64,000 nucleotides of DNA from Elusimicrobiota bacterium (lineage in GTDB: Bacteria > Elusimicrobiota > Elusimicrobia > Elusimicrobiales > UBA9959), in NCBI GenBank assembly GCA_009773155.1, contig WOVA01000017.1, positions 1 to 64,000 on the forward strand, in the 5' to 3' direction. Position numbers and translations under genes: made by a program. Positions 1 through 15,801 of this stretch are shown in pieces. A model generated the notes under the pieces. The model saw nothing but the letters and a program-made list of their open reading frames with translations. It did not search any database and was not told the origin of the DNA. Within the stretch, counting starts at the first letter, position 1; each line of letters begins with the position of its first letter.

Positions 1-97
1 AAAGGCGGAAATAAGAAAATGCTAGAGTAACAACGATTCGGAAAAGTGGCCTCGGTTAAGTGGGACTGAGGCGGCCTCCATTAAGTGGGACGTGACA
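1..97. mobile_element. Probable insertion-sequence end (partial)
   Basis: This edge contains two direct copies of TTAAGTGGGAC (near 56-66 and 80-90), separated by a GC-rich stretch, and no gene. Short direct repeats near a terminus are typical of the ends of some insertion sequences. The sequence replaces the distal part of a CRISPR repeat exactly where that repeat loses its match, so I infer an IS inserted in or recombined with the array. The rest of the element, including any transposase, would lie left of the window. Family unknown. Confidence 0.35.
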
Positions 98-292
98 CGT
101 GGGGAACGTCAAATGCGGCGATAGCCCTCTGCTCAATGGCCCGGTTCATCCCCACGTGCGTGGGGAACGTTTATCCCGGAGGCAAAATAATATGCGCTGG
201 AACGGTTCATCCCCACGTGCGTGGGGAACGTATTTTGCAATCCCCCGCCCCCTCCTCCTCATCCGGTTCATCCCCACGTGCGTGGGGAACGT
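98..292 (-). CRISPR. Type I-E CRISPR array, 3 full repeats and 1 truncated repeat
   Basis: Full 29-base repeats lie at 142-170, 203-231 and 264-292. On the plus strand they begin CGGTTCATCCCC and end GTGGGGAACGT, with an inner inverted repeat. Spacers at 171-202 and 232-263 are 32 bases each. A third 32-base interval (110-141) leads to a partial repeat in which only the last 12 bases (98-109) match. Read on the minus strand the repeat resembles the E. coli I-E repeat (GTTCCCC...GGGGAT.AACCG), so the array runs right to left and the newest spacer should be 232-263. The array is extremely short for a locus with all cas genes; the truncated repeat suggests its older part was cut off. Confidence 0.95.
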
Positions 293-385
293 ACTTCTAT
301 TTGCGCTTAAAATGCCCTATAAACGCTTTTTAGGCCCAAAATCGTCCGGTAGCCGATTTTAAGGCCTACCAAATTGTCAAAGATC
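293..385 (-). promoter_or_regulatory. CRISPR leader
   Basis: This A/T-rich stretch of about 93 bases lies between the end of cas2 and the first full repeat and holds no gene. In I-E systems the leader carries the array promoter and the integration-host-factor site that directs new spacers to the first repeat. Position, base composition and repeat orientation fit a leader reading on the minus strand. I see no unambiguous promoter hexamers. Confidence 0.6.
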
Positions 386-1575
<1,190 letters not shown>

Positions 1576-1583
<8 letters not shown>

Positions 1584-2427
1584 GCTGTTCCCGCTTCAGC
1601 CTTTTGCGGCTTTCAGGCTCCGTCAGGTAATTTTCCGAAGAAACAACGCGCTTGCCCGTTTTCTTTTCCAGGTCCTTTCGTGCCTTCCCAGCTACGCCCC
1701 CACCTTTGACGGCCGCATGCCGGTTGGCCGGAAAACCCCTGGCATCATCCGCCCTGGCGATAGCTGTTGTGGACGCTTCGCCCAGCATGGTGAAGATAAG
1801 TTCCAGGTCTGTCATGTGGTCGCGCAGATTTTCGCGCTCCAGCCCCTTCATTTTTTTGTGGTCGGACGGATTAAGGCCGAACGCCGCCTTAGCGATTTCA
1901 GCGGTGAGAATCTCGTATTCCCTGGGGGCCTCGACGTCCCGTTTTTTCCATTCGCCGGTCAGTTCTTCACGCACAGCGATGCCGCGCATCCGCTTTTCAA
2001 TCCATTCATCAGAATAGCCTTTGGCCTTGAAAAGAGCCCGAGTCCTTTTTGTGCCAAGTTCGGGATCCTCAATCTCCTGCACCCGCTCATAACCGACTTT
2101 GGCCAGCCAGCGCTTGAAAGGCTCGGCCTTTGGCGAAGGGATTGATTGAATAAGGCGAAATATGCCCTCGGTATTCCAACAATACATTTTCTGCCCGCCG
2201 CCGGCGGTTTCCACTTCAAGCGTAAGGGGTGGTACAAATTGTACCCCCCCTTTAGCTGTAACTTTCGCAAGTTCTTCATCTCTCCGTTTTAATCTTTTGA
2301 AGTATTGCGCCGGATCGCTGGAATCCGTCAATGACTCGATAACATCATTAATCACAAACCACCACTCATTTTTATATCGCGTCCGCCGTATTCCCTTGCC
2401 CTTAAAGACCGCTATCTTCTTGTCCAT
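1576..2427 (-). CDS. Bro-N antirepressor-like protein with DinD-like C-terminal region, inside the cas operon
   Basis: This 283-residue protein is not a known Cas protein. Residues about 10-115 (NEWWFVINDVIESLTDSSDP... YCWNTEGIFRLIQSIPSPKA) resemble the Bro-N domain of phage antirepressors. The C-terminal half (ENLRDHMTDLELIFTMLGEA ... KDLEKKTGKRVVSSENYL) resembles the tail shared by DinD (DNA-damage-inducible D) and many phage antirepressors. The gene lies 22 bases after cas6e with its own Shine-Dalgarno GGAGG and overlaps the cas1 start, so it is on the same strand and almost surely in the same transcript. DinD of E. coli acts on RecA filaments; a role in regulating or assisting spacer acquisition is only my inference. 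It may also be a passenger or phage-derived insert. Confidence 0.8.
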
Positions 2428-2449
2428 AAAAGAACCTCCGCAGGGGTCT

Positions 2450-3127
2450 TCAGAAAACCGGAACTATAGAAAGTAACCCGAGACCCATGGTTTTGCCGTG
2501 TCCTATCCCTTTTTGAAAAGCCGCACGGAACGCTTCCGGCTCGGTAACGTTCAACACGCCATCATATAACGCCGAAAAAAGGCGGATCTCTATCCCATTC
2601 CTTCTGCGCCCATGCAGCATTCTCTCCTGTGAGATGCGCACCGCCACGCGCTTTGCCTGACCGTCTGGCTCCTCGGCCCCGGCCAGATATGGCAGAGCAA
2701 AACCATGCTGCTCACGTCCTTTGCGGTCAAGCCACAGCTCCTGCTCCGGCGCACGGAGAAGCCCCAGGCGTTTTCCATTGCGGGTGACCGACGGATTGGC
2801 CCGCAAGCGAAACCGGAATTTTGCGCCCGGCTTTAACGCGTTAAGCCGCAGGCGCTCCAGGATATTGACAGGGGCGGCCGGCGACCCAGAAAACCAGTCC
2901 GCCGCTATCCTTGACCAGTCCGGAAGAGAACGGCTTTGTATTATAACCCGGGGATTGCCCCCGCCATCGGTTTCCGGCTCCAGCCGCCAGAGGAATTCTC
3001 CTTCGGGACACTTAATATCCGGCGCTGAGAACGCGCGGCAGAGCGTGGAATGCATTTCGTACGGATCGGCAAGATCTCGGCGAGCCTCCCGGCTTCTGGG
3101 ATCGAGGTGTATTCTATGCAGGTACAT
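2450..3127 (-). CDS. cas6e: crRNA-processing endoribonuclease Cas6e (CasE)
   Basis: Cas6e cuts the repeat hairpin of the CRISPR transcript and stays bound to the 3' handle of the mature crRNA in Cascade. The 225-residue protein starts MYLHRIHLDPRSREARRDLA, typical of the family. A histidine at residue 26 (DPYEMHSTL) is in the position of the catalytic histidine of E. coli CasE. The C-terminal glycine-rich loop GIGHGKTMGLGLLSI is present. The start overlaps the end of cas5e by 14 bases. The next gene downstream is the Bro-N gene instead of cas1, which is the normal neighbour in I-E operons. Confidence 0.95.
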   Translation of the reverse strand: MYLHRIHLDPRSREARRDLADPYEMHSTLCRAFSAPDIKCPEGEFLWRLEPETDGGGNPRVIIQSRSLPDWSRIAADWFSGSPAAPVNILERLRLNALKPGAKFRFRLRANPSVTRNGKRLGLLRAPEQELWLDRKGREQHGFALPYLAGAEEPDGQAKRVAVRISQERMLHGRRRNGIEIRLFSALYDGVLNVTEPEAFRAAFQKGIGHGKTMGLGLLSIVPVF

Positions 3128-3809
3128 TAAGCGCCTCCTGCGGGAACTCTATCCATTCCGAATACACGTACCTGGCGCCAAAGCGCCTCTCGGCGTAAGA
3201 GGATAATGGCTGGTCCATTTTCAGCGTTCCGGAACCATCGTTAGATTCCAAAGATAGCAGCAATTTACCGGGCTGTTCCTCCCACTTCCGTTCGGTGGAA
3301 AGCCACGGCCACCGGAGAAGAGCCTCCCTGAGCGGCAAGTCCAGCAGGGCATTTTCCATAAACATAGGCTCTGAGGGCACATATGACCTGCGCCCCAGAG
3401 AGAGCGGCCACTTCGGGTTGCGCAAGGCGGAGTCCACGGCGATCAACAGATCCCTACTCTTGCTCTCCAGGCCCACCAGGAAGACGGCGTCGGCGAGATA
3501 AAAACGCTGCGAGACCACGCCACCGGCCGTAGAGGGCTCACCGTTCGCCTTAATAATGGAATCACCGGCGCACCCGGCAGTCTGGTAGTCATATTTAGGC
3601 ACACCGGGGCGGTCGTGCCGGACGCCCATTGCAAGGCGAGTTAAAGGCTTAAGTTCGTCCCAGTTCTCCCGGTCGATCCCCTGGGCCGCCGCCAGCAGCC
3701 CTATAACGCCGGATTTACTGGGCTCTTTGCCGGTATCCCGCTGGTCAAAGCGGCTGGTAGTGCCCCAGGACTGCATGGGGCCGGCCAGCTTAATCAATAG
3801 CGTCGGCAT
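3114..3809 (-). CDS. cas5e: Cascade subunit Cas5e (CasD)
   Basis: Cas5e caps the 5' handle of the crRNA in the Cascade complex. The 231-residue sequence opens MPTLLIKLAGPMQSWGTTSR, the hallmark start of Cas5e, followed by the conserved R-x-T-x-x-x-P-S-K-S-G segment (residues about 25-34) and LSLGRRSYVPS near residue 137-147. Length is typical. Three bases separate it from cas7e, and it overlaps cas6e, as expected in a tightly coupled I-E operon. No defects are visible. Confidence 0.95.
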   Translation of the reverse strand: MPTLLIKLAGPMQSWGTTSRFDQRDTGKEPSKSGVIGLLAAAQGIDRENWDELKPLTRLAMGVRHDRPGVPKYDYQTAGCAGDSIIKANGEPSTAGGVVSQRFYLADAVFLVGLESKSRDLLIAVDSALRNPKWPLSLGRRSYVPSEPMFMENALLDLPLREALLRWPWLSTERKWEEQPGKLLLSLESNDGSGTLKMDQPLSSYAERRFGARYVYSEWIEFPQEALNVPA

Positions 3810-3812
3810 AAG

Positions 3813-4985
3813 TTACTCCCGGGCCGCGGCGCAGGCCTTATCGAGCAGTTCCGGCAGGTCCGCCACCGCCGTTCCGAACCCCTCGATTCCGGCATCGGTC
3901 AGGTTGAGCACGAACGTTTTCTCCTCTCCGCCATAAACGCTCCGCAGGGCCTTGGCTTTTTTAGCCAGCTCCTCCGCCGAGTTTTTGGTTATCGATTCAT
4001 TCCTGCGCGTATACACCGCCCTCTCAAAGGCGTTTGCCAGGCTGCGCGGCGCGGTGTTACGGCGCACCGATACCGCGACGAATTCGGGCGGGTTATGCGC
4101 GGCAAAACTGTTCTGTTTGCCAGAAGGCTCCGAGACGATACAGCCCTCAAGGAAGGCGCGCAGACCTTTCGCCGACAGTTCCTTGTCGTTCTGCAGGTTC
4201 TCCAGCAGTTTTGCCCAGTCCACCACGGCGTAACGGTAGAAGCACGCCGAGTTGAATTCCACGGTCCCCATCATATCCGCGGCGGCGGTGTCTTCCGGCT
4301 TAAGGTCGTCGACCGCTGTGTAGAAGTCGAACTCCCTTTCCACGGCATGTGTGGAGATGGCGTGTGCCACCTGGCATGCGGCGTCCTGGTTCTTTTCAGG
4401 CATATCCGCAAGCATACGGCCGAAAAGGGCGATATCGACCGCTTTACCGCCTGCTTTTTTGTCGTTTAACATCCCCTCAAGTTGCTCTTTCACTTCCTTG
4501 GGAGCCCCGGCTGCGGCGTCTTTCTTCTTATTACCTTTTTTCTTTCCCGTTTCCTCCGCTTCCTCCTTGGACGGCAAGATCTGCCCCCAATGTTTATCTA
4601 TTACACCGGCAAGCCCCGTTATTTCCCGCTGGCCTAGAAAAAGGAGATATTGCGATTTCCCCGCCTCGGACGCTGTTAATTTAATATAGGACAAGGCTAT
4701 TTCCGCCTTGGCGGCGGCCTCCGCACCGTCCCGTTTTCCTTTGAGGCTATCCGCGATAGCCTGGTATACACGTTTTGTCCTGACAGCCAGTTCATCGGAG
4801 GAAAAGAACCCGTCTGATTTTTTATGGGCAAAATGCTCCCGGACCGCGCGCTTGAGGCATTGGCTGGAGATGCGGGCGCGGCGGGTACCGCCGAACCAGG
4901 CGTCTTTCGGCGCTCCGGAGTCGTCCCTGTTGAGATTTGAGGGGGCAAAGTTCTGCAAGGCGTGTATTTCAATTAAGGTTTTCAT
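3813..4985 (-). CDS. cas7e: Cascade backbone subunit Cas7e (CasC/Cse4)
   Basis: Six copies of Cas7e form the crRNA-binding spine of Cascade. I start it at 4985 (MKTLIEIHALQNFAPSNLNR) and not at the upstream in-frame codon at 5003, because AGGAGA lies just before 4985 and this is the standard family start; the product is 390 residues. Conserved I-E features include NRDDSGAPKDAWFGGTRRAR and SSQCLKRAVREHF. A lysine-rich insertion (GKKKGNKKKDAAAG) occurs near residues 145-160 and may be a species-specific loop. It overlaps the end of cse2 by 17 bases. Confidence 0.94.
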   Translation of the reverse strand: MKTLIEIHALQNFAPSNLNRDDSGAPKDAWFGGTRRARISSQCLKRAVREHFAHKKSDGFFSSDELAVRTKRVYQAIADSLKGKRDGAEAAAKAEIALSYIKLTASEAGKSQYLLFLGQREITGLAGVIDKHWGQILPSKEEAEETGKKKGNKKKDAAAGAPKEVKEQLEGMLNDKKAGGKAVDIALFGRMLADMPEKNQDAACQVAHAISTHAVEREFDFYTAVDDLKPEDTAAADMMGTVEFNSACFYRYAVVDWAKLLENLQNDKELSAKGLRAFLEGCIVSEPSGKQNSFAAHNPPEFVAVSVRRNTAPRSLANAFERAVYTRRNESITKNSAEELAKKAKALRSVYGGEEKTFVLNLTDAGIEGFGTAVADLPELLDKACAAARE

Positions 4986-5484
4986 TAGTTTTCTCCTGTT
5001 CATTAGTTTTCCGCGCTAATTCCCTATAAAAGTCCCTAGCCCATGAATTTTGCGTGAATTTCCGGACATCGTTCCAGCGCAGCAAGCCGGCAAGCAGACC
5101 CTCGAAGTCTACCGGCTGTTCTTTCAGCAGGGCCAGAAGCTGGCGCAGGCGGTAGGGCAGTTGGTCCGGGTCGGAGTCGAGCATGGTTATAAACCGCCGT
5201 TCCGTGCTTGCGGAATCTGTCGGCCCCTGGTGAGCGGCACAGGCTTTCCCAAGTGTCATGCCTGTCGCCGCGCGTCCTTCCCTGTAATGGGCAGCCCATA
5301 GCCCTGCGGCGAGATAGTACATCTCCCTGCGCCACGGGTTTTCCTCTCCGGTCAGGAACGGCTCCACGTACGGGTAGGCGGGGACATAGGCGCCCGGCGC
5401 GAACGCCAGGCTACGGCGCAGGACGGCCTTTGCTTTACGGCCGTCAGTGTTGATCTTTTCCAGCCATGCGATAAATCCGCTCAT
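4969..5484 (-). CDS. cse2: Cascade small subunit Cse2 (CasB)
   Basis: Cse2 is the all-helical small subunit; two copies line the belly of I-E Cascade and stabilise the displaced strand. The protein has 171 residues, normal for the family, and includes FITMLDSDPDQLPYRLRQLL, a typical CasB segment, followed by a basic helical C-terminal part (residues 120-165). It overlaps cse1 by 4 bases (ATGA) and cas7e by 17 bases. The last residues (NEQEKTNENLN) run through the Shine-Dalgarno region of cas7e. Confidence 0.92.
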   Translation of the reverse strand: MSGFIAWLEKINTDGRKAKAVLRRSLAFAPGAYVPAYPYVEPFLTGEENPWRREMYYLAAGLWAAHYREGRAATGMTLGKACAAHQGPTDSASTERRFITMLDSDPDQLPYRLRQLLALLKEQPVDFEGLLAGLLRWNDVRKFTQNSWARDFYRELARKTNEQEKTNENLN

Positions 5485-7016
5485 TCATGTACCTCCTGCT
5501 TCGTGTATTTTGCGATCTCTGAGTTTAGTTCTTGAATCTTGCTCCACACAGGGATTTCAGCCTTTACAAGCGCTCGTATTGCCCATGCGTTTCCCGCCGA
5601 GACCGAGGCGGCGTGTTGTCCCCACGCCGTTTTCAAAGCGTCCCTCACATGGTTCAACCACCGGCAACGGATTTCATCGGGGTCGCAATTGGATGCATAG
5701 CCCCCTAGTATTTCATGAAAGTGCACCTCCAGCGTAGACCAATACCAAGGAATTGCCGGCATTTGTTTTACGAATTCACTTACATCCTTTTTATCCGGCT
5801 CTCTTTGTTTACCAGTCCCTTTTTTTTCCATATTTTTACTCAAAATAAATTTCGCGTAACTGGAGCATGCTTTCGAAAGGGATTCATCGGCACTGGCCGC
5901 ATCTTCTAGGATCTGCTGTATTTCAGTCCTAGCAAAACGGGTTTCCACCATTGCCGGCGGCAAGACGAAGCGTTCCATCCGCCAAAAATCCACATTTGCG
6001 TTCGGAGGTTCGTATCGCAGGCCCAGAACCAGAACAGATTGAGTCAACTGATTCGTTTTCCCGCCTGCCAACTTCAGAGCATTCTGAACGGTTAGTGGAG
6101 CTGAATCGTCGCCAGAAGGAAGCAGGGAATCGAAGTCTCTCCAGGTGCCACGGTCTTGCCTGAATTTCACCGGCAGCTTTCCTACCTTTTCGTTAATCTG
6201 ATAAGGTTGCATTGGGTCAGAAATATTCGAGGTATTGTCAAAACCTTGTCCAGCCACAAATCTCATGAACATGCCTGAGAGTTGTTCCTCAAGGAAGACC
6301 ATCCGCGATGGCCATGTGTAAAGGTCTGCGTATCCTGAGGCCTTCCGCTTCGGGTTCTTCAGGGGAAGTTCTTCCAGCTCACGTTCCCACAGTGCAGAAT
6401 CGCCCAGCATGACGGCCCGATTCGGATACGGAACAAGGTTATAACAGAGTGTTTCTTGAAGATTTCGACCGAGCGGTATGCACATCATGGCATTCGGCGA
6501 CGGGGAAGGGTAATAGCCCCTGCCACCGGAAATCGAAAAGTTCATGGTTGATAGCAGCCAGCGGGCACACTCTTTAGATTCCCGCATCCCAGGTCTCTTC
6601 GTGTCGGTGTGATCAAAGAGCACCTTGTTGGTTGTCGCGTTATATTCGGCGGTCAGTTTAGTCCAGGGCTCAAGTCTGTCATCCGGGATGTGGGGGTTCT
6701 GCCCAAACGGGAATTTCTCGTCGAACAGCCAGAACCTGGGACGCCATGTTTCGAGGTAATCCTTTATCGGCTTTTCCGGCAGGCCGGAGCGGAACAGGGA
6801 TTTAGCCTGTTCGATATCCGTGGGTCCCTGCAGGGCGCGGTAAAGAACCGCCAGTAGGAAGCGGTGCAGGGCCGCGACCACCAGCGGGGAAGGGTCTTCG
6901 ATAGCGGCTATTTCTTTTGCTCGCAGCAGAGTCTCCCTGATTCCCAGCTCGGCGCGGGTCCCGTCAGGGAACCGGACGGGGATCCATTTCTCGTCAACCA
7001 AGTTAAACCCGCTCAT
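5481..7016 (-). CDS. cse1: Cascade large subunit Cse1 (CasA/Cas8e)
   Basis: Cse1 recognises the PAM and recruits Cas3. I take the start at 7016 (MSGFNLVDEKWIPVRFPDGT), the usual family opening, giving 511 residues; the longer reading from 7085 adds an unsupported tail. The FNLVDEKWIPV start and the GQGFDNTSNISDPMQPYQ region are CasA hallmarks, as is GGRGYYPSPSPNAMMCIPLG. Length is standard. The start codon overlaps the cas3 stop (ATGA), so the two are probably translationally coupled. No damage is visible. Confidence 0.95.
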   Translation of the reverse strand: MSGFNLVDEKWIPVRFPDGTRAELGIRETLLRAKEIAAIEDPSPLVVAALHRFLLAVLYRALQGPTDIEQAKSLFRSGLPEKPIKDYLETWRPRFWLFDEKFPFGQNPHIPDDRLEPWTKLTAEYNATTNKVLFDHTDTKRPGMRESKECARWLLSTMNFSISGGRGYYPSPSPNAMMCIPLGRNLQETLCYNLVPYPNRAVMLGDSALWERELEELPLKNPKRKASGYADLYTWPSRMVFLEEQLSGMFMRFVAGQGFDNTSNISDPMQPYQINEKVGKLPVKFRQDRGTWRDFDSLLPSGDDSAPLTVQNALKLAGGKTNQLTQSVLVLGLRYEPPNANVDFWRMERFVLPPAMVETRFARTEIQQILEDAASADESLSKACSSYAKFILSKNMEKKGTGKQREPDKKDVSEFVKQMPAIPWYWSTLEVHFHEILGGYASNCDPDEIRCRWLNHVRDALKTAWGQHAASVSAGNAWAIRALVKAEIPVWSKIQELNSEIAKYTKQEVHE

Positions 7017-9745
7017 GCGGTCTCCTTTGCTTCGTAAACCACGCCAAGGTCTTCGTCCAGCCGCACGGAATTGTCCAGGATCCAACGGCCGCCCTCACCA
7101 AGTTGCAGGGGAAAGCAGTTGCGCAAAAGAGGGGAACTCTTCCAACTTTCCGGCACCCCGGCGCTTTGCAGTTTGGCTACGACTCCTTTGCGAGACAGGC
7201 TTACGGCCCGCGAAAACCATTCCGATTCCATCTCTCTCGGCAGAGCGGCCAGGGTATAAGCGTCGGCAGGGAACAGCGGGATGGTAAGAATGGAATTGTT
7301 TCCCAGGCGCGTATTAGCCATCAGCGTCCTGTGCACTGCGGGGTCATCCTCGTCATGGAGCACAAACCTTGCCGGCTGGTTCCAGGAAGCGTCTTCGGGA
7401 AAGCCAATTATGGCCTGATTAGCCTGCTGCTGCTCGGCAAGGATCTTTCCGTATTGTTCGTCGGCTTTTTCCATGCGTATCCGCAGAAAATCAGGGATTT
7501 CCGCTTCGCTTTCGTAAACAGTGCGGACAAAGGAATCTATATCGTCCGGCAGACTGATAGTTTTTCGACCCTTCAGCAGCAGCCAGGTCCGCAGTAGAAT
7601 ATCTTCACGATACACGGCACCCCACCATAAGGGTTTATCGAACGAGGGCGGTTCTTTGCCGGCGAGGCCGGCCACGAACAACGCCGGCCCGGCCACCGAC
7701 CTTGCGGCGCGCCGGTGCCGCCACAACCGCCCGGCCCTCTGGAGAATAAGGTCTATCGGCGCCAGGTCGGTCACCATCAGGTCAAAATCCAAATCCAGAC
7801 TTTGTTCCGCCACCTGCGTGGCGATGAGGATCTTGCGCCCCTGCCGCCGACTGTCCTTGCCGAACAGCTCAAGCGCCTGTTCCTCCCGTTTCTGGCGCCA
7901 GGCGGATGGGAAACGGGCATGGAACAAATAAACTTCGGTCCCGTCCGGCAGACTTTTCCCCACACGGCTGGAGCCGCGCTTTATTGGAGTCCCCGCGGGA
8001 AAAAGGCGGTACATATCCTGCGCCCGTTGCACCGTATTGAATAGCGCCACCCCCAACCCGCCATTGCTCAAGTGCCCGGTCAGAGCCGCATAAGCAGCGC
8101 CGAGGGCCTCGGGAATTTCGTTAACGGCGATAGTCCGCCTCAACTCCAGAGAGGGCTTAAAGTGTGTTTGTAAGACTTTCCCTTTTGAAAACACCGAAAG
8201 GCGCGGATACTCCGCCTCCTCCTCCGGCAAATCCGCCCCGGTCACACCGGCCAGTTTGCGCCGTATGGAAGGCGGCAGCGTGGCGGATAAAAGCACAACG
8301 GAAGACCCCAGCGCGGTGAGCCATCTCAGTAAATGCACAAGAAGCGTCTCAGTATAGGCGTCATAAGCGTGGATCTCATCAAAGATCACGACGCGGTTCG
8401 CTAGTCCCCACAGGCGCATAAAATTGTGGCGCACCGGGAGGATAGGAAGCAAGGCCTGGTCCACGGTGCCGATGCCGTACTCCGAGAGGAGGGCTTTTTT
8501 CTTGGCGGTGAACCATTCTGCCGCGCGGACGCCGCCTTCGGCGCCGGGTTCGCCGTTTAAGGAAGGACGGAGGCCCTGGAAAGTTTCATTCTGCGCGGCC
8601 GAGCCGTGCAGCAGTTGCAGGTCGAGGCTGCGGCCGGGGGCCTGGCGACGCAGGAATTCCAGCGCCCGCGTGAACATGGCGTTGCCGGTGGCTTTTGTCG
8701 GCATGGCGATATACAGGCCGCGATGCCCGAAGCGGCGCTGCAGTTCCAGGTGGGCATAGAACGCCGCCTCGGTCTTCCCCTCGCCCATCGGCGCTTCGAT
8801 AAGGATAATGGCCGGTTCATTCAGCTTCTCCACCGCCTGGGCCGCGGCTTTTTGCAGCGGGCGCGGCTTGAAATTCAAGGCCTGCTCGAAAGTTTTCGAC
8901 ACGGCTGAAAGGGGCGCGCGGGGCAGCCAACCTATCTTATCAAGCGCTTGTTCAGCCGCGGCGGAGCGTTTGGCGAACCAGGCCGGAAGGTCGCCGCAGT
9001 CGTCGGCTTTTCCGAAACAGAAATGGCTCTCGTCCGAACCTATCCAGTCTGAAAAACTTGCAAGGCCGGCGAGCAGCATAAATTCCGGGCCGGACAGGGT
9101 TTGCTTGGTTAGCGGCGGCCTGGCGGTGGAAGCGCCAAAAACGTCAAGCGCCGCGGAGATAAGCGCGTTGCGGCCCCGGGTCCAATTGTCATCCCCGATT
9201 GCGCGCCTGTTCCCGCTAAGCCGCTCAATGAGGAAAGGAGTTGCCCGCTCCCCGTGATGGCAGCCAACAGCGTCGCCGACCAACTCGGCCAGACCGGACG
9301 GCCAGTTTTGCTCCCTCTGGAGCCAGTCGGAAAGAGCTATCTGGCTGACAAAACCGTGATTGATGTCTCTATCCGGCACCCGCGGCATGGGAAGGCCAGT
9401 CCCTGCTGCGCCGAACCATTTAGACTGGAATCCGGGGCAGGCTTTGCCGAGATCGTGACAGGCAACCGCCAACAGGATCCATGGCCGGGCCTCGTTCCAA
9501 TTCAGCCCAAAGGCGGCGGCAATATTTCCCCGGGTAACTGACGGCTCCCGCTTCAGCACGGCGTCGGCGACCGCCGCCACGTCCAACATATGAAGCAGGA
9601 GCGGGTGCCAAGCCCCGGATGCCCTGTCGATTTTAGCCCAGAGATTAGACAATCCCGCATCCAGCGGCTGCCAGTCGCTCTTGGGAGCGGGGGTACCGTC
9701 CGGGGCGGACTTTGTATGAGCGTAAAAAGGTTCTTCTTTGTTCAT
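7013..9745 (-). CDS. cas3: CRISPR nuclease-helicase Cas3 (HD plus SF2 helicase)
   Basis: Cas3 is recruited by Cascade to unwind and degrade target DNA. From the ATG at 9745 the protein has 910 residues. An N-terminal HD nuclease domain shows H-D in LLAVACHDLGKACPGF (about residues 97-98), H130 in DINHGFVSQ and the HH pair in GCHHGER (163-164). The helicase has Walker A APMGEGKTEAAFY, the DEIH box in VVIFDEIHAYDAY, motif III LLSATLPPS and motif VI APIDLILQRAGRLWRHRR. A TTG six codons upstream (9763) could also be used. A weak -10-like TAAACT lies 8 bases before the ATG; I see no clear -35. The operon probably starts here. Confidence 0.96.
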   Translation of the reverse strand: MNKEEPFYAHTKSAPDGTPAPKSDWQPLDAGLSNLWAKIDRASGAWHPLLLHMLDVAAVADAVLKREPSVTRGNIAAAFGLNWNEARPWILLAVACHDLGKACPGFQSKWFGAAGTGLPMPRVPDRDINHGFVSQIALSDWLQREQNWPSGLAELVGDAVGCHHGERATPFLIERLSGNRRAIGDDNWTRGRNALISAALDVFGASTARPPLTKQTLSGPEFMLLAGLASFSDWIGSDESHFCFGKADDCGDLPAWFAKRSAAAEQALDKIGWLPRAPLSAVSKTFEQALNFKPRPLQKAAAQAVEKLNEPAIILIEAPMGEGKTEAAFYAHLELQRRFGHRGLYIAMPTKATGNAMFTRALEFLRRQAPGRSLDLQLLHGSAAQNETFQGLRPSLNGEPGAEGGVRAAEWFTAKKKALLSEYGIGTVDQALLPILPVRHNFMRLWGLANRVVIFDEIHAYDAYTETLLVHLLRWLTALGSSVVLLSATLPPSIRRKLAGVTGADLPEEEAEYPRLSVFSKGKVLQTHFKPSLELRRTIAVNEIPEALGAAYAALTGHLSNGGLGVALFNTVQRAQDMYRLFPAGTPIKRGSSRVGKSLPDGTEVYLFHARFPSAWRQKREEQALELFGKDSRRQGRKILIATQVAEQSLDLDFDLMVTDLAPIDLILQRAGRLWRHRRAARSVAGPALFVAGLAGKEPPSFDKPLWWGAVYREDILLRTWLLLKGRKTISLPDDIDSFVRTVYESEAEIPDFLRIRMEKADEQYGKILAEQQQANQAIIGFPEDASWNQPARFVLHDEDDPAVHRTLMANTRLGNNSILTIPLFPADAYTLAALPREMESEWFSRAVSLSRKGVVAKLQSAGVPESWKSSPLLRNCFPLQLGEGGRWILDNSVRLDEDLGVVYEAKETA

Positions 9746-9756
9746 TTCTTCAGAGT

Positions 9757-10109
9757 TTAGCAAACCGACGCGATGGAATCCCGATGTCCGTAAATGCCCC
9801 GGGGCTGTACTTTCCTCTCGGCCGCATAGGCGGCGCGCCGTTCCTCCGCTGTGAAGCCGATGCGTTTCCGGGGCTTCACGGGCGTGACTTGGAAGTCACA
9901 AATTGTGACTTCCAATTCCGCATCTCGGCCTTTGTCAGACTGAACATAAAGTCTTGCGGGAAGCGTTTTACTTTCCGTTTCACGGCCTGGTTGAGCGCTT
10001 TTGTCTGCACGCCATAGAGCGCGGCCAGGTCGCGGTCCAGTATAACCTTGCGGCCGCGCAACAGCAGGATTTTGCTTTCTATTATTTCCGCCGGGATGAT
10101 TTCTCTCAT
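9757..10109 (-). pseudogene. ORF6N-domain gene, decayed by internal loss
   Basis: The frame starting at 10109 encodes MREIIPAEIIESKILLLRGR... DLAALYGVQTKALNQAVKRK ... FPQDFMFSLTKAEMRNWKSQFVTSK, a textbook ORF6N DNA-binding domain, but stops after 77 residues (stop 9876-9878). Members of this family are usually well over 150 residues. In the next frame, from about 9880 to the stop at 9757-9759, the sequence reads PRKRIGFTAEERRAAYAA, which resembles the usual C-terminal tail of such proteins. I infer deletion of the middle plus a frame change. The truncated domain could still be made. ORF6N proteins are phage and mobile-element regulators. The remnant ends at the cas3 promoter region. Confidence 0.65.
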
Positions 10110-10115
10110 GAGAAG

Positions 10116-10148
10116 ATCATAGCAAGGGGGTGCGACAACGTAGTGTCG
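10116..10148 (-). promoter_or_regulatory. Promoter with palindromic operator of the ORF6N gene
   Basis: On the minus strand a -10-like TATGAT (10116-10121) ends 6 bases before the ATG at 10109, and the imperfect palindrome CGACACTACGTTGTCG (10133-10148) ends exactly 11 bases upstream of it, covering the -35 position. There is no TTGACA-like hexamer at -35 and no Shine-Dalgarno. The helicase gene at 13036 has the same layout with a nearly identical palindrome at identical spacing, which argues for a real shared control element, likely producing an almost leaderless transcript. Confidence 0.5.
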
Positions 10149-10149
10149 T

Positions 10150-10296
10150 TCAGACCTTGCCGCCGGTGCGGGCGCGGCGCAGGGAAGGGTTGAGGCAGCG
10201 GTGGGATTTACCCACCTGCTGCCTGTTGAGCAGGCAGTAGTAGAAGAAGTCACCGTCGTACCTGACGACGCAGTAAGGACACTGTCCGAATTTCAT
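10150..10296 (-). CDS. Small zinc-ribbon protein, 48 residues
   Basis: A short frame from ATG 10296 to TGA 10150 encodes MKFGQCPYCVVRYDGDFFYY followed by CLLNRQQVGKSHRCLNPSLR and a basic tail. Four cysteines (C-x2-C, then single cysteines near residues 21 and 34) suit a small zinc ribbon. An extended -10 (TG-C-TAAAAT, near 10327-10335) lies about 30 bases upstream; the ribosome site is only a G-run. It is in the accessory block between the ORF6N remnant and the duplicated helicase scrap. Function unknown; it could be a chance frame, but the cysteine pattern argues otherwise. Confidence 0.45.
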   Translation of the reverse strand: MKFGQCPYCVVRYDGDFFYYCLLNRQQVGKSHRCLNPSLRRARTGGKV

Positions 10297-10380
10297 TGAA
10301 ACCCCCGGAACTTTCAGCGCAGGTCTATTTTAGCATTACCGGCCGACCGGCGGAATACCCTGAAAAGGGGATGCCGGGGT

Positions 10381-10452
10381 CAGACCTCGTGGAGCTCGAT
10401 CACCCGGTCCACGCGGAAAAGCCGTTCTTCCCGGCGCAGCGAACAGCGGGCA
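10381..10452 (-). repeat. Duplicated 3' end of the PIF1-WYL helicase gene (gene scrap)
   Basis: These 72 bases match the last 72 bases of the helicase gene (11390-11461), including the stop codon, with about nine differences. Read on the minus strand it would encode the same C-terminal peptide (SLRREERLFRVDRVIELHEV against ...RVLELHEV), so most changes are silent or conservative. This suggests that it once belonged to a second, functional helicase-WYL gene of which only the tail is left. The two copies bracket the KilA-N gene as direct repeats about 1 kb apart. Confidence 0.8.
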
Positions 10453-10493
10453 CCGCCCCCCCATAGCAGGTCCGGCCGGGGAGAGGTTTAACC

Positions 10494-11315
10494 CTACCCC
10501 GTCTTTTTCAGCGTCTTGTTCCCCGCCAGGGATCTCATCTGCGTAATCGCTATTTCATTCAGTTGCCGGAGCCTTTTGCCCTGCGGCATTCCCTGGCGGA
10601 TAAGGACCGAATTTATGCTTTCAAGATTTGAAAGGACCACCAATTGCTCGAGCGCGGCATGGTCGCGGATATTTCCGGCGCGGCCGGGGTTATCCCGGCG
10701 CCACTGCTTCGCGGTTTTCCCGAAAAGGGCCATATTCAGGATATCCGCCTCCGTGGCGTAAAGCGCGGCGACCTGCGCTCCGGTCAATTCCGGCGGGACC
10801 AGGCTGTCTTTTATGGCGTCGGTATGGATGCGGTAATTCACCTTTGCCAGTGTCCGCTGAAAACTCCATCCTGTTTTAAGCCGTTCATTTTCTTCTTTCT
10901 TCAGGCGCTGGAATTCCTTCAGCAGAAAAAGTTTGAACCCGGGGCTTACCCATGCCGCGAATTCGAAGGCGATATCGCGATGGGCGAAAGTCCCGCCCGC
11001 GTTACCCGGCCTTGAAACGATGCCGACGGCGCCGGTGGCGTCGATCCATTTTGACGGTGAAAGAATAAAAGAGTTGCTGCCGGCCTGATACATAAAGGAA
11101 TCGAATTCGACCCCTTTGAAAGCCGGATTATGGAGCTGCTCCCATAAACCCAGGAACTCGATGGTAGTCTTCGACCTCATCCAGTTCTTCACCAGATCCT
11201 TGGGCTCTTCCGGATTTTTATGGCGGGCAATATCGGTAAGAGAAATATAGTCTTCCTCTTCCCTGGAGAAAAAAGAGATCGCACTGCCTTTTACCATCAG
11301 TATTTGATTTTTCAT
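10494..11315 (-). CDS. KilA-N domain protein
   Basis: The 273-residue product contains a KilA-N domain over about residues 10-125: YISLTDIARHKNPEEPKDLV, NWMRSKTTIEFLGLWEQLHN and the characteristic WIDATGAVGIVSRPGNAGGT FAHRDIAFEFAAWVSP. KilA-N is a DNA-binding domain spread by large DNA viruses and phages, often in antirepressors. The C-terminal half (residues 140-270) is helical and carries a DIRDHAALEQLVVLSNLES-type tail common in bacterial KilA-N proteins of unknown role. A good Shine-Dalgarno (AGGAGA) precedes the ATG. It lies between the helicase and a scrap of that helicase's 3' end, consistent with insertion at the gene tail. Confidence 0.88.
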   Translation of the reverse strand: MKNQILMVKGSAISFFSREEEDYISLTDIARHKNPEEPKDLVKNWMRSKTTIEFLGLWEQLHNPAFKGVEFDSFMYQAGSNSFILSPSKWIDATGAVGIVSRPGNAGGTFAHRDIAFEFAAWVSPGFKLFLLKEFQRLKKEENERLKTGWSFQRTLAKVNYRIHTDAIKDSLVPPELTGAQVAALYATEADILNMALFGKTAKQWRRDNPGRAGNIRDHAALEQLVVLSNLESINSVLIRQGMPQGKRLRQLNEIAITQMRSLAGNKTLKKTG

Positions 11316-11389
11316 CGCATTATTCTCCTGGTAAATATTCCCCGGCGGCTTCGCCGCACGACCGGGTAAGGCCGCGGTGGTATCCCGGC

Positions 11390-13036
11390 TCAGACCTCGT
11401 GGAGCTCCAGGACCCGGTCCACGCGGAAAAGCCGCTCCTCCCGGCGCAGCGAACAGCGGGCCCGGAAACCCTCGTAGGTCCGTCCCCCGGAGGTAAAATT
11501 CCCTAAAAAGACCGGCTTCACGACGCGGCGGGTGGTCTCGGCGCCGGCGCTCAGGTAGACTATCTCCACGCTGCGGCCCTCTTTTATGGCGCGGCGCAGG
11601 CCGGCGGAGACGGCGGCGCGGGGAGCGTCGGCGGCTGGAGAAACGGGAGATGGCAGAGCGGGGGCGGCCGTGGGCGCGGCCAGGTCCGCGGCTCTCACGC
11701 TTTTCATGAAATCGGCCACGCGGGCGTCGGTGCGGGCGTGCCAGGGCTTTATCGGGTGGCGCAGGACTATGCCGTCCAGCGTGCGGCAGCGGCTTAAAGC
11801 GACGTAAAGCTGGCCGCTGGCGAAGATGCCTCCCTCCAGGTCAAGGATCATCCTGTCGAAAGTTTTCCCCTGGCTTTTATGTATGGTGACGGCCCAGGCC
11901 AGCCGCAGCGGCAGCTGCATGAAGGTGCCGGCGGTCTCGGTCCTGAGCCTGCCGGCTTTCTCGTCGTAGGCGTAGCGCAATAATTCCCAGGTATGCGGGC
12001 CCACGTTTACCACGGGGCCGGGCCGGTCGCACTGCTCCCGGCACCGATTGCGGACAATGCCGCCCTGATCCGTTTCCAGACGCACCCTGGCCGCGCCCGG
12101 CTCCAGCGCCGTGACCACGCCCATCGTCCCGTTGACCCAGCGGCCGCCGGGGTCGTTGTTGAGCATCATGACCTGCGCTCCGGCCTTCAGCTCCAGGCTC
12201 TCCTCCGTGGGCAGGGCGGCCTCGTCGAACTCGCCGTCCAGGAAGCCGTCGTAAAAGCCCGGCGGCGAGCGCAGGCCGGCCAGCCGCTCCGCGTTGAGGC
12301 CGGCGGCGCGCTGGTTGGTGGTGGTCAGCTGCACGTAAAGCTCCCCGGCCGGGGGCTCGAAGCCGGGCAGGTGCCGGGCGTTGAGGGCCTCCAGCTGCGC
12401 CGGAGTGGCGCAGGCGGCGCGCACGGCGTTGAGCAGCCCTATAAAGCCGTCGTCGCTCTGGCGGTAGACCTTTGTAAGTTCCACCACATCCAGCCGGAGT
12501 TCCTTAAATACGCGGGAATCGAAGAAATAATTCCCGGCGTAGGCCCGGGAGAAGGCCTCGCGCTCTGTGTTCTTGAGTACCGGGGGCAGCTGGTGCAGGT
12601 CGCCGATGAGGACGGCTTTCACTCCGCCGAAAGGCAGTTTATGCTGCTCCCGCACGGAACGGAGGAAGGTGTCGGCGCAGTCCAGCAGGTCGGGGCGGAC
12701 CATGGAGACCTCGTCGATTATGAGTATCTCCAGCGCCCGGTAAACGGCCCCCTTGCTCTTTTTGGCGGCTGCGCGAGCCAGGCGGCCCGCTTTCTCCGGC
12801 GTGACCCCGGGCTTGAAGCCGAAGAAGGAGTGTACGGTCTGCCCGCCGACGTTGAGGGCGGCCACGCCCGTCGGGGCCAGGACGGCCTGCGACCGGCGGG
12901 AACTTTCCTTGAAGAGCCGCAACAGCGTGGACTTGCCGGTGCCGGCGCGGCCCGTTATGAAGACGCAGCGCGACGGGCCCTCCAGCAGGTCGAGCGCCCG
13001 CCTGAACCCGGGATTTATCTCGATATGTTCGTTCAT
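11390..13036 (-). CDS. PIF1/RecD-like DNA helicase with C-terminal WYL domain
   Basis: The 548-residue protein is an SF1B helicase. It shows Walker A FITGRAGTGKSTLLR (residues about 26-40), motif Ia LAPTGVAALNVGGQTVHSFF, DEVSM in ILIIDEVSMVRPD, GDLHQLPPV, and C-terminal AWAVTIHKSQGKTFDRMILD with YVALSRC. After an Ala/Pro-rich linker (about 445-475) a WYL-type domain follows (AIKEGRSVEIVYLSAGAETT ... ARCSLRREERLFRVDRVLEL). WYL domains bind ligands, often in defence-linked regulators, so fusion to a PIF1 helicase next to CRISPR-Cas is notable. The start has no Shine-Dalgarno; a -10 box lies 7 bases upstream, suggesting a leaderless mRNA. Confidence 0.88.
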   Translation of the reverse strand: MNEHIEINPGFRRALDLLEGPSRCVFITGRAGTGKSTLLRLFKESSRRSQAVLAPTGVAALNVGGQTVHSFFGFKPGVTPEKAGRLARAAAKKSKGAVYRALEILIIDEVSMVRPDLLDCADTFLRSVREQHKLPFGGVKAVLIGDLHQLPPVLKNTEREAFSRAYAGNYFFDSRVFKELRLDVVELTKVYRQSDDGFIGLLNAVRAACATPAQLEALNARHLPGFEPPAGELYVQLTTTNQRAAGLNAERLAGLRSPPGFYDGFLDGEFDEAALPTEESLELKAGAQVMMLNNDPGGRWVNGTMGVVTALEPGAARVRLETDQGGIVRNRCREQCDRPGPVVNVGPHTWELLRYAYDEKAGRLRTETAGTFMQLPLRLAWAVTIHKSQGKTFDRMILDLEGGIFASGQLYVALSRCRTLDGIVLRHPIKPWHARTDARVADFMKSVRAADLAAPTAAPALPSPVSPAADAPRAAVSAGLRRAIKEGRSVEIVYLSAGAETTRRVVKPVFLGNFTSGGRTYEGFRARCSLRREERLFRVDRVLELHEV

Positions 13037-13043
13037 CGCTTAA

Positions 13044-13076
13044 ATTGTAAAACACAGGGCCGACAGCGTGGTGTCG
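13044..13076 (-). promoter_or_regulatory. Promoter with palindromic operator of the helicase gene
   Basis: On the minus strand the -10-like TACAAT (13044-13049) ends 7 bases before the helicase ATG, and the palindrome CGACACCACGCTGTCG (13061-13076) sits 11 bases upstream of it. The ORF6N gene shows CGACACTACGTTGTCG with the same 11-base gap to its -10. The palindrome covers the -35 position, so it may be an activator or repressor site replacing the -35 hexamer. No ribosome-binding site is present between the -10 box and the start codon. Confidence 0.5.
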
Positions 13077-13102
13077 CCCCCGCCCCGGCGGGAGGCCCCG
13101 CG

Positions 13103-13954
13103 TCAAAGGTCGGTGATGTCCTGGAAGATGACGCCGGCGCCGACTATCCCCCCGTCGGGGCCCTTCATGTTGATGGAGCTGTAGCCGATGACGCGCCCCG
13201 AGCCGCCGACCTGGCACTTGAATTCCTGGCGCCGGACGGTGCGGCCGGTCTTGAGCACGTCGCCCAGCGCGTTGACCAGGTCGGGGCAGAGGTTGAAAAG
13301 CTCGATTATCCCGCGGCCCAGGAACTCCTCGGCCGTGCCCAGGATGTCGCGCGCCTTGGGATTGAAGAAGATGACCTTCCCCGCCTGGTCCACGCCGATG
13401 AAGCCGCCGGAAAGATTGTTTATGGTGCTCTCGCCGCGGGCGTTGAGCTGCGCGACCGTGGCCTCGAGCCGGCCGACGTAGAGGCGCTGGCAGAAATGGC
13501 GCAGCGCGGCCTCGGCGAAGGCGGTATCCCCGGGGCTGAAAGTCCCCTGCATGGGGTTTATGTATTCCAGCACGCCGCCCAGCCGGCCGCCGAAGAAACA
13601 GGGCAGGGCCAGCGCGGCTTTGGTCACGAAGCCGCTGCCCTTGTCCACTTTTTTGGTGAACCGCGGGTCGTTGAGCGCGTCATTGACGACCAGGGTCTCC
13701 CCGCTTTCGGCGCAGAAGCCGACTATCCCCTGGTAACCGAAGCTCAGGCCCACCAGGTCCGCTCCGACGGGGCCGATCGCCTTCCTGAAAGTGAGCGTCT
13801 TCTTGTCGGGGTCGGCCTCGAAATAGCTGACCGAGTGGCAGGCCATGTAGGAGGCGGCCTTGCGCACGAAATTATCCCAGGCCTCGTCCTCGGAGGAGAA
13901 CGGGGCGTCTATATCCCTTAGCAGCGCGGCCAGGTGCGGCAGTCTCTCGCTCAT
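13103..13954 (-). CDS. GAF-PAS sensory protein without output domain
   Basis: The 283-residue cytoplasmic protein has an N-terminal GAF-like domain (about 15-150; SYMACHSVSYFEADPDKKTL, GIVGFCAESGETLVVNDALN, GGVLEYINP) and a C-terminal PAS domain (about 165-280; LSGGFIGVDQAGKVIFFNPK, GRGIIELFNLCPDLVNAL, VIFQDITDL). No kinase, GGDEF or helix-turn-helix follows, so it may signal through a partner or have lost its output part. Its start overlaps the stop of the amidase gene upstream by 4 bases (ATGA), so the two share an operon. The ligand is unknown. Confidence 0.75.
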   Translation of the reverse strand: MSERLPHLAALLRDIDAPFSSEDEAWDNFVRKAASYMACHSVSYFEADPDKKTLTFRKAIGPVGADLVGLSFGYQGIVGFCAESGETLVVNDALNDPRFTKKVDKGSGFVTKAALALPCFFGGRLGGVLEYINPMQGTFSPGDTAFAEAALRHFCQRLYVGRLEATVAQLNARGESTINNLSGGFIGVDQAGKVIFFNPKARDILGTAEEFLGRGIIELFNLCPDLVNALGDVLKTGRTVRRQEFKCQVGGSGRVIGYSSINMKGPDGGIVGAGVIFQDITDL

Positions 13955-15801
13955 CGTTTTTCCCTCTTCTTACCGGGCGCCGCCTTGGCGGTTGGCTGTG
14001 GGGGAGCGCCGGCGAAGTCCAGCAGGCCGGCGGCGACCGCCCCGGCCAGCTTCTCCTGGAAAGCCGGGGTGTTGAGCAGTTCTTCCTGCTCGGGCATTAT
14101 CATGTGCGCGTGCTCTATGAGTATCGACGGCATCTGCGTCATGCGCGCCACGTGGTAATCGCCGAAACGCAGCCCCTCGTCGGGGAGCTTTATGCCGCTC
14201 AGGAAAGAGCGGTGCACCGAGCGGGCCAGGGAGAAGCTGTGCGGATGGTAGTGATAGACAGAGAAGCCGCGCGGAGAGCCGAACGGGTCCTCGCCGTCGG
14301 CGATGGCGTTGTTATGCAGGCTTATGAAGACGTCGCCGCCGTTCTCCACGGCCAGGCGCGGCCTGTCGGTCAGTTCTACGTTCTCCTCTCCGCTCCGGGT
14401 CATGTACACCGCCGCGCCCAGCTGCGACAGGCGCGCGCGCAGCTTGTCGGCCAGCGCCAGGTTCACGTCCACCTCGAAGGTGGCCATGGGGCCGACCGCG
14501 CCGTCGAGCCAGCAGCCTTCCGGCATCGCGTCGTAGGTAAAATCCTTCATCGGCACCCGGGCATTGTCGCGGCACTTGTAGAAACGGGAATGGCCCGGGT
14601 CCAGCGCGACCTTCAGCCCTTCCAGGGGCTTCGGCCATTTCAGCGACATGGCCGGCGGGCCCTTGAGGTCCACCTGCAGCCCCCTGGGGCCGTAAGCCAC
14701 GTTGTAGCCCCAGAGCTCCCGGGCCAGGCGGAAATTCAGCTCGGCGTAGCCGGCGCCCTGCCGCATATCGACCTTGCCGACCAGCGTGTCGGAAGAATCG
14801 TAGACCACCCAGTTGGTGTGCAGGCGGGTATAATAAAGCTTCAGGCGTAGAGTGTCCCCCTCGTGCTCCACGGAATAGGGGACCTTTTCATAGACCGTGA
14901 CCAGGGCGGACGAACCGGCTCCCTGGGCCTTGAGCCTTATGCTGCCGGTCTTGGTCCTGGGCGCGGCCCCGCGTCCTACGGCGGAGACCTTGCTCTCCTC
15001 CACCCAGGCGTGTTCCGAGGGCGTCAGCCAGACCCGGCGCATGCCGCCGGCGCGGCCGTCGGAAGCCAGCTTCACGCCGCTGGACAGGAACAGGACATAG
15101 CCCCCGTCCTCGGCGCTGCGGAGGTTTACCGAATCGGTGGAGATCTCCACGAGCGTGAACTTATCCAGGATGTCGACCTTTACTTCGCGGCTGGACCTGC
15201 CGCTGTGACGCAGCACTCCGCCGAATCTTGCCGTCAGCTTCAGTCCGCGGCCCCGGTCGCCCTCGCGGACCCGGTAGCTGCCGTAATAGCGGCCCGAGCC
15301 GGCGGGGATCTCGACCATCTTCTCGTCCTCCACCACGCTCCCCAGCGAAAAAGAGACTTCCCTGCCGGGCTCGCCGGCGGCGTGGACGTTGAGATAGTCG
15401 CCCTGCGAGAGCTCCAGGTCGGAAGATGGAGAGACCAGCTCGAGGGCCGGGCGGGGCGTCTCCGCGCCGTTCTGAGCGGCCGGGCCTATCCGCACCTTGC
15501 GGGCCAGGAAGGTGGTGGCGTAGCCGGTGGCTCCCTCGCGCAGCTCGCAGTTGAAGGAGAACTCGCCGGGATTTACCGGCAGGTAGGCGATGAAACCGCC
15601 GTTGGTATGGGGCCTGACTCGCTCGCCGTTGATGAAGAACGGGGCAGTGGCCGGGCTGACGGTGCCGAAGATGAAGGTCCTGGACACCAGCGGCAGCGGC
15701 TGGTTTTCGCGGGGGTAGGAGACCTTTATCTCCCCGGCCTGCAGGGCGGCGGCCAGGGCCGGGACCAGCAGCAGGGAACTCAGTATCGTGGAGTATTTCA
15801 T
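13951..15801 (-). CDS. Exported N-acetylmuramoyl-L-alanine amidase (Amidase_3)
   Basis: The enzyme cleaves the amide bond between muramic acid and the stem peptide of peptidoglycan. I start it at 15801 (MKYSTILSSLLLVPALAAAL), which gives a signal peptide and 616 residues. Residues about 25-390 form beta-rich modules without a family I can name. The catalytic domain starts near 400: LKVALDPGHSRFYKC (zinc His), ATFEVDVNLALADKLR (zinc Glu), FISLHNNAI (zinc His), and SILIEHAHM near the end where a catalytic glutamate is expected. It ends in a basic tail. It is divergent from the PorV-LysM gene, which also targets the cell wall. Confidence 0.87.
   Translation of the reverse strand: MKYSTILSSLLLVPALAAALQAGEIKVSYPRENQPLPLVSRTFIFGTVSPATAPFFINGERVRPHTNGGFIAYLPVNPGEFSFNCELREGATGYATTFLARKVRIGPAAQNGAETPRPALELVSPSSDLELSQGDYLNVHAAGEPGREVSFSLGSVVEDEKMVEIPAGSGRYYGSYRVREGDRGRGLKLTARFGGVLRHSGRSSREVKVDILDKFTLVEISTDSVNLRSAEDGGYVLFLSSGVKLASDGRAGGMRRVWLTPSEHAWVEESKVSAVGRGAAPRTKTGSIRLKAQGAGSSALVTVYEKVPYSVEHEGDTLRLKLYYTRLHTNWVVYDSSDTLVGKVDMRQGAGYAELNFRLARELWGYNVAYGPRGLQVDLKGPPAMSLKWPKPLEGLKVALDPGHSRFYKCRDNARVPMKDFTYDAMPEGCWLDGAVGPMATFEVDVNLALADKLRARLSQLGAAVYMTRSGEENVELTDRPRLAVENGGDVFISLHNNAIADGEDPFGSPRGFSVYHYHPHSFSLARSVHRSFLSGIKLPDEGLRFGDYHVARMTQMPSILIEHAHMIMPEQEELLNTPAFQEKLAGAVAAGLLDFAGAPPQPTAKAAPGKKREKR

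Follow-up and report, generated by a model that had tools for sequence, protein, structure and literature searches.

The sequence analysed here (the window) is a 64-kb stretch at the start of contig C35, within a 2.76-Mb genome of 93 contigs. It contains a type I-E CRISPR-Cas operon in which cas3, cse1, cse2, cas7e, cas5e, cas6e, cas1e and cas2e follow one another in order and are accompanied by repeats. Between cas6e and cas1e lies a gene whose product carries a Bro-N domain. The features are as follows, with the basis of each assignment in parentheses; L, G and C numbers are our handles for loci, genomes and contigs.

143..292, plus strand: CRISPR array remnant, three identical 28-bp repeats at 143, 204 and 265 (repeat scan)
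386..679, minus strand: cas2e (TIGR01873, E=5.8e-32)
660..1583, minus strand: cas1e (TIGR03638, E=1.5e-112)
1576..1583, minus strand: 8-bp overlap of the Bro-N stop and the cas1 start, ATGACTGA (sequence)
1576..2427, minus strand: Bro-N gene, 283 aa, between cas6e and cas1e (ORF; Pfam Bro-N, E=1.3e-13; PADLOC PDC-S13, E=1.3e-103)
1618..2136, minus strand: C-terminal helical domain, about residues 98-270, with a predicted DdrC-like fold (AlphaFold2; PDB fold search)
2098..2391, minus strand: Bro-N domain, residues 13-110, the fast-evolving half (Pfam; dN per half)
2450..3127, minus strand: cas6e (Pfam, NCBIfam)
3114..3809, minus strand: cas5e (Pfam)
3813..5003, minus strand: cas7e (operon position and a homologous gene at the equivalent place in relatives)
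4969..5484, minus strand: cse2 (Pfam)
5481..7085, minus strand: cse1, longest ORF, true start probably internal (Pfam)
7013..9763, minus strand: cas3 (Pfam)
9876..10253, minus strand: truncated ORF6N gene, intact copies having about 181 aa (PF10543, E=2.4e-23, profile positions 1-63 of 86; intact copy in L099)
10494..11315, minus strand: KilA-N gene upstream of cas3 (PF04383, E=1.9e-18; PDC-S22, E=2.8e-127)

The initial annotation described an intact 283-codon Bro-N gene between cas6e and cas1e, separated from the former by 22 bp and overlapping the start of the latter by 8 bp; the open reading frames and the Pfam and NCBIfam models agree with this description. The gap occupies positions 2428-2449. 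The match to Bro-N (PF02498) covers residues 13-110 and scores 51.8 bits against a gathering cut-off of 25.6, and the identities of Cas1e, Cas2e and Cas6e are given by NCBIfam models. No more than three full repeats are left in the array, which stops close to the start of the contig, so it has been truncated, either by the assembly or by another element. The truncated ORF6N gene and the intact KilA-N gene lie directly upstream of cas3 (9876-11315), and ORF6N genes are likewise found upstream of cas3 in the relatives L099, L102 and L103.

We scanned for homologues using one genome per species. Among the stretches examined there were 543 relatives, of which 80 loci, picked by similarity to the window protein, were kept; nearly all of the data are metagenome-assembled genomes, with ORFs called by simple rules. 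When neighbouring genes were clustered without prior labels, the top clusters were Cas3 (18 loci), Cas4 (15), Cas8c (13) and Cas7 (13), identities that are backed by Pfam on cluster representatives. The homologues occur in type I-E and type I-C operons across several phyla. In I-E operons the gene is placed before cas1; in I-C operons it precedes cas4, separates cas4 from cas1, or stands ahead of cas3, and some I-C loci have it at the operon head, adjoining cas3 and not cas1. The initial annotation had made the case for a functional role depend in part on finding Bro-N with cas1 in further genomes; we looked for this association, and it recurs.

The frequency of the arrangement depends on the group considered. 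Within the family, the slot holds Bro-N in every one of the five genomes whose cas1e is at least 85% identical, and two of these five carry divergent effectors (Cas5e, Cas6e and Cas7e at 25-42% identity) next to the same BroN-cas1-cas2 unit. In the window's phylum (341 genomes), a Cas1e of at least 70% identity is encoded at seven loci. Bro-N is directly upstream in five of them (the window, G121, G112, G111 and G114), with RhuM upstream in G176 and nothing in G280; G111 and G114 have the BroN-cas1-cas2 unit as in the window, with divergent effectors. A survey of 395 genomes from the phylum of L039 gave 27 further Cas1e loci at 63% identity or more; four of them have Bro-N, in one case cut off by the end of the locus, and another has a Bro-N remnant. 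The best 30 I-C Cas1 loci include one Bro-N gene and one remnant. Most surveyed I-E and I-C operons stand without Bro-N, and since many homologues are solo genes distant from cas, the family does not need CRISPR. In L101 and L102, cas1-cas2 is kept with Bro-N (Cas1/Cas2 at 85-91% identity) and the effector genes are replaced by divergent ones.

The Bro-N gene is under purifying selection: dN/dS is about 0.06-0.2 between family relatives in those comparisons that allow an estimate of dS, and an alignment spanning phyla has about 60 invariant columns. Its Bro-N half evolves much faster than the C-terminal half: between the window gene and a second copy on contig C38 of the same genome, dN is 0.376 for the N-terminal half and 0.035 for the C-terminal half. 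The overlap with cas1 is also seen in L039, L041, L083, L016, L053 and L055 and in family relatives, and overlaps of 4-8 bp recur independently in several loci. Given recurrence in the same slot of other genomes and conservation at low dN/dS, the association is more than chance. The further suggestion of the initial annotation, that the gene is a co-expressed operon component and not a random insertion, is favoured at the level of sequence by the same arrangement elsewhere, the recurring overlaps and the purifying selection.

We also asked how the cas-linked copies are distributed on a tree of 105 homologues. A clade of 35 (SH-aLRT 89, quick tree) holds 26 of the 28 cas-linked copies, or 24 without the weakly labelled L040 (one Cas4-like ORF) and L052 (a cas1 remnant). 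Cas linkage is thus found for 26/35 copies inside the clade versus 2/70 outside (Fisher p 7e-15, a value that ignores relatedness). The cas label changes 10 times on the tree versus 24.9 times in shuffles, and 0 of 500 shuffles were as low. One Bro-N clade is specialised to cas loci. On the same tree, I-E and I-C copies are intermixed (8 changes versus 9.3-9.4 shuffled). Members labelled non-cas include L003, with about 45 bp of the cas1e start, and L141 and L145, with cas3 starts; cas remnants also lie beside L046. The two cas-linked copies outside the main clade, L099 and L102, fall into another one, which means that this slot has been filled or refilled independently. In genomes with cas-linked copies, paralogues are mostly elsewhere, yet L199 and L208 are again beside cas genes. 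Across 11 I-E loci, Bro-N distances track those of Cas1 (r 0.36, p 0.016) and not those of Cas7 (r 0.00), in a Mantel correlation that is weak, shares taxonomy and ignores relatedness.

The gene also appears to have moved. The second copy in the window genome, on contig C38, is 81% identical and lies between uvrB and nadC. Its homology to the window copy runs from the start codon to inside the cas1 start, which implies that the C38 copy left a BroN-cas1 junction. In this locus (L003), the copy and its cas1 fragment occupy 9117-9995, and the uvrB tail is unlike that of relatives without the insert. When the congeneric genomes G118 and G120 are aligned over the uvrB site, they have no Bro-N insert. 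We found no transposition signature at the uvrB copy, i.e., no transposase and no clear target duplication, and the only conserved features at its ends are the start codon and the cas1 fragment. Dispersed copies are present in about 27% of the phylum's genomes (91/341).

AlphaFold2 modelled the whole protein with a pLDDT of 84, and the C-terminal domain alone with a pLDDT of 88 and a pTM of 0.78. In a PDB fold search with the whole model, all six matches at E up to 0.001 were Deinococcus DdrC, and the two-domain comparison with DdrC gave a Foldseek probability of 1.00 and an E of 2.9e-6, with a large rmsd arising from domain arrangement. For the C-terminal domain alone, DdrC was the only PDB match (E 6.5e-4, TM 0.58/0.50). 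The likeness to DdrC of Deinococcus radiodurans (PDB 8u0g, 7udi, 7qvb), a radiation-response protein, extends over both domains and 244 columns, although sequence identity is only 12-18%. The match in fold is of moderate strength, with a TM of 0.5-0.6 for the C-terminal domain, and does not demonstrate an activity. A PDB sequence search with the Bro-N family gave chance matches only. To our knowledge, DdrC has no CRISPR linkage. DdrC binds single- and double-stranded DNA with a preference for the former, shields DNA from nucleases, and circularises and anneals DNA (PMC5436757). Judging from the predicted structure, DNA ends or single-stranded DNA are the most likely ligands of the Bro-N protein.

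The C-terminal half had initially been likened to DinD of E. coli. DinD inhibits RecA and has a Bro-N-like N-terminus; in E. coli it is a solo SOS gene, unlike the cas-linked clade. A weak collinear alignment of the C-terminal regions around a DHM motif does exist. However, the scores are very weak (single-pair BLAST E 0.24; profile-profile E 0.0047, probability 7.5%), and DdrC is the stronger structural relative. The DinD profile also picks DdrC weakly (E 1.2), which is consistent with a DinD-DdrC-BroN superfamily but does not prove one.

The family itself is not new, because it is already listed in PADLOC as a single-gene defence candidate (PDC-S13, matched over the full length), under a model name that is silent on cas operons. 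The openly accessible literature that was searched contained no description of a link between Bro-N and cas1 or of DinD with CRISPR; as far as that literature goes, both the slot and a clade specialised to cas operons seem to be new.

Since close relatives recur in two kinds of CRISPR operon across several phyla, the Bro-N gene is probably an accessory of CRISPR immunity that has so far been overlooked. Our single best guess, which we hold tentatively, is that it is a type I CRISPR-Cas accessory with a DNA-handling job coupled to spacer acquisition. This guess is based on the coupling to cas1, the specialisation to cas loci and a fold like that of DNA-end-binding proteins; the acquisition role is one that we infer from linkage. 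According to this proposal, a clade specialised to cas loci would have moved repeatedly between I-E and I-C operons, most often inserting where the effector genes meet the cas4/cas1/cas2 module and sometimes ahead of cas3. In I-E operons, the protein would probably be made together with Cas1 by translational coupling. Its Bro-N domain and DdrC-like helical domain, as predicted, would engage DNA ends or single strands, and it might retain DNA fragments, shield or channel them, or prevent RecA-type repair from reaching them, during spacer capture by Cas1-Cas2 or target degradation by Cas3. That unrelated genes occur in the same slot counts against a specific acquisition role, which does not explain them. 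It is doubtful that the gene defines a new Cas family, in the sense of a DdrC/DinD-like DNA-end-binding factor that serves spacer acquisition in I-E and I-C systems and moves with the adaptation genes. Host factors that feed DNA fragments to Cas1-Cas2 are still only partly known; if the proposal is true, a protein resembling DNA-break binders, whose gene is in tandem with cas1 and specialised to the cas operons of two subtypes, would open a direct way to study fragment supply.

Other explanations need to be weighed against this proposal. Bro-N domains are widespread in phages, the N-terminal domain is shared with phage antirepressors of the Bro-N and KilA-N kind, and the protein matches PHROG_15286 over its full length, so a recent phage insertion or anti-CRISPR cargo might be suspected, and the initial annotation had raised an anti-defence passenger. 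This origin is highly improbable. Close homologues are rare in phage records (4/50,697, at most 43% identity), homologues on viral contigs number 11 with at most 57% identity over the full length, and the gene is conserved over the long term inside operons. The C-terminal domain differs from that of the antirepressors, and the cas-linked clade is mainly chromosomal. A plasmid-borne gene was likewise rejected (9/72,556 plasmid records with a homologue). The antirepressor annotation could instead indicate a transcriptional regulator whose Bro-N domain binds operon DNA, and a variable N-terminal domain would be expected if its targets change. We consider this very unlikely, as the gene is inside the operon and not at its head in most I-E cases, is kept across operons with unrelated promoters, and in its C-terminal domain matches DdrC and not a regulator. 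A mobile single gene that survives at harmless module boundaries, neutral or selfish and contributing nothing to immunity, would account for the dispersed copies, the translocated copy after uvrB with its cas1 fragment, the replacement of the allele in the same slot by one from another clade (L099/L102), and the many unrelated genes found there. However, the clustering of one clade with cas is far above the shuffled expectation, the strong purifying selection, the invariant columns and the recurring cas1 overlap speak against such a gene, and it has neither a transposase nor an obvious target duplication.

The other occupants of the slot also suggest a guard or addiction element, i.e., a toxin-like or abortive-infection gene within the operon that exacts a penalty when CRISPR is lost or inhibited. 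Among the 27 I-E loci from the phylum of L039, RhuM-Fic, Fic, a 23S intervening-sequence protein, YhcG (DUF1016) and an addiction antidote occur once each, and the best 30 I-C Cas1 loci include two RhuM genes, four intervening-sequence proteins and one DUF4160-DUF2442 pair. These proteins share the slot with Bro-N and are unrelated to it. PADLOC has models for such families (PDC-S13, S05 and S22), several of them accompany restriction systems, RhuM being tied to restriction operons (PMC3710099), and in the II-C system of B. fragilis RhuM lies between cas1 and cas9 (PMC5704556). There is also the precedent of CrePA, in which an antirepressor-type domain is tied to CRISPR, as here, and a KilA-N toxin is repressed by Cascade (PMC12737573). 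However, CrePA requires a crRNA-like repressor acting on the toxin promoter, and none was found in the window: apart from the array, positions 1-14000 contain no degenerate repeat with up to 10 mismatches, near Bro-N or elsewhere, and the array spacers have no match elsewhere in the window. With neither a degenerate repeat nor a promoter match, CrePA-like control was rejected. No antitoxin gene adjoins Bro-N, whose neighbours in the window are cas6e and cas1e; its mid-operon position, with 22 bp upstream, leaves no room for a separate CRISPR-controlled promoter; and the predicted fold appears to be DNA-binding, with no recognised toxin domain. Because of the other families in the slot, we keep a guard as a possible, if somewhat unlikely, explanation, and a passenger as an unlikely one.

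Whatever Bro-N does, defence-type genes have repeatedly landed in the slot where effector genes border on adaptation genes. Four I-C operons (L267, L268, L271 and L264) have a gene for a 23S rRNA intervening-sequence-like protein immediately upstream of cas4, and the solo Bro-N paralogues L210 and L209 adjoin RhuM together with YhcG or HsdM, in the manner of restriction islands. Further genes were noted around individual adaptation modules. A gene with an RNase H-like exonuclease domain follows cas2e in L041 (10056-10601), and in L230 a second small gene (812-1375) separates Bro-N from cas1e; it has no Pfam match and may encode a nucleotidyltransferase. In the congener L103, the I-E operon is reduced to the cas3 and cas1 ends around an IS3-like insertion (11681-14177).
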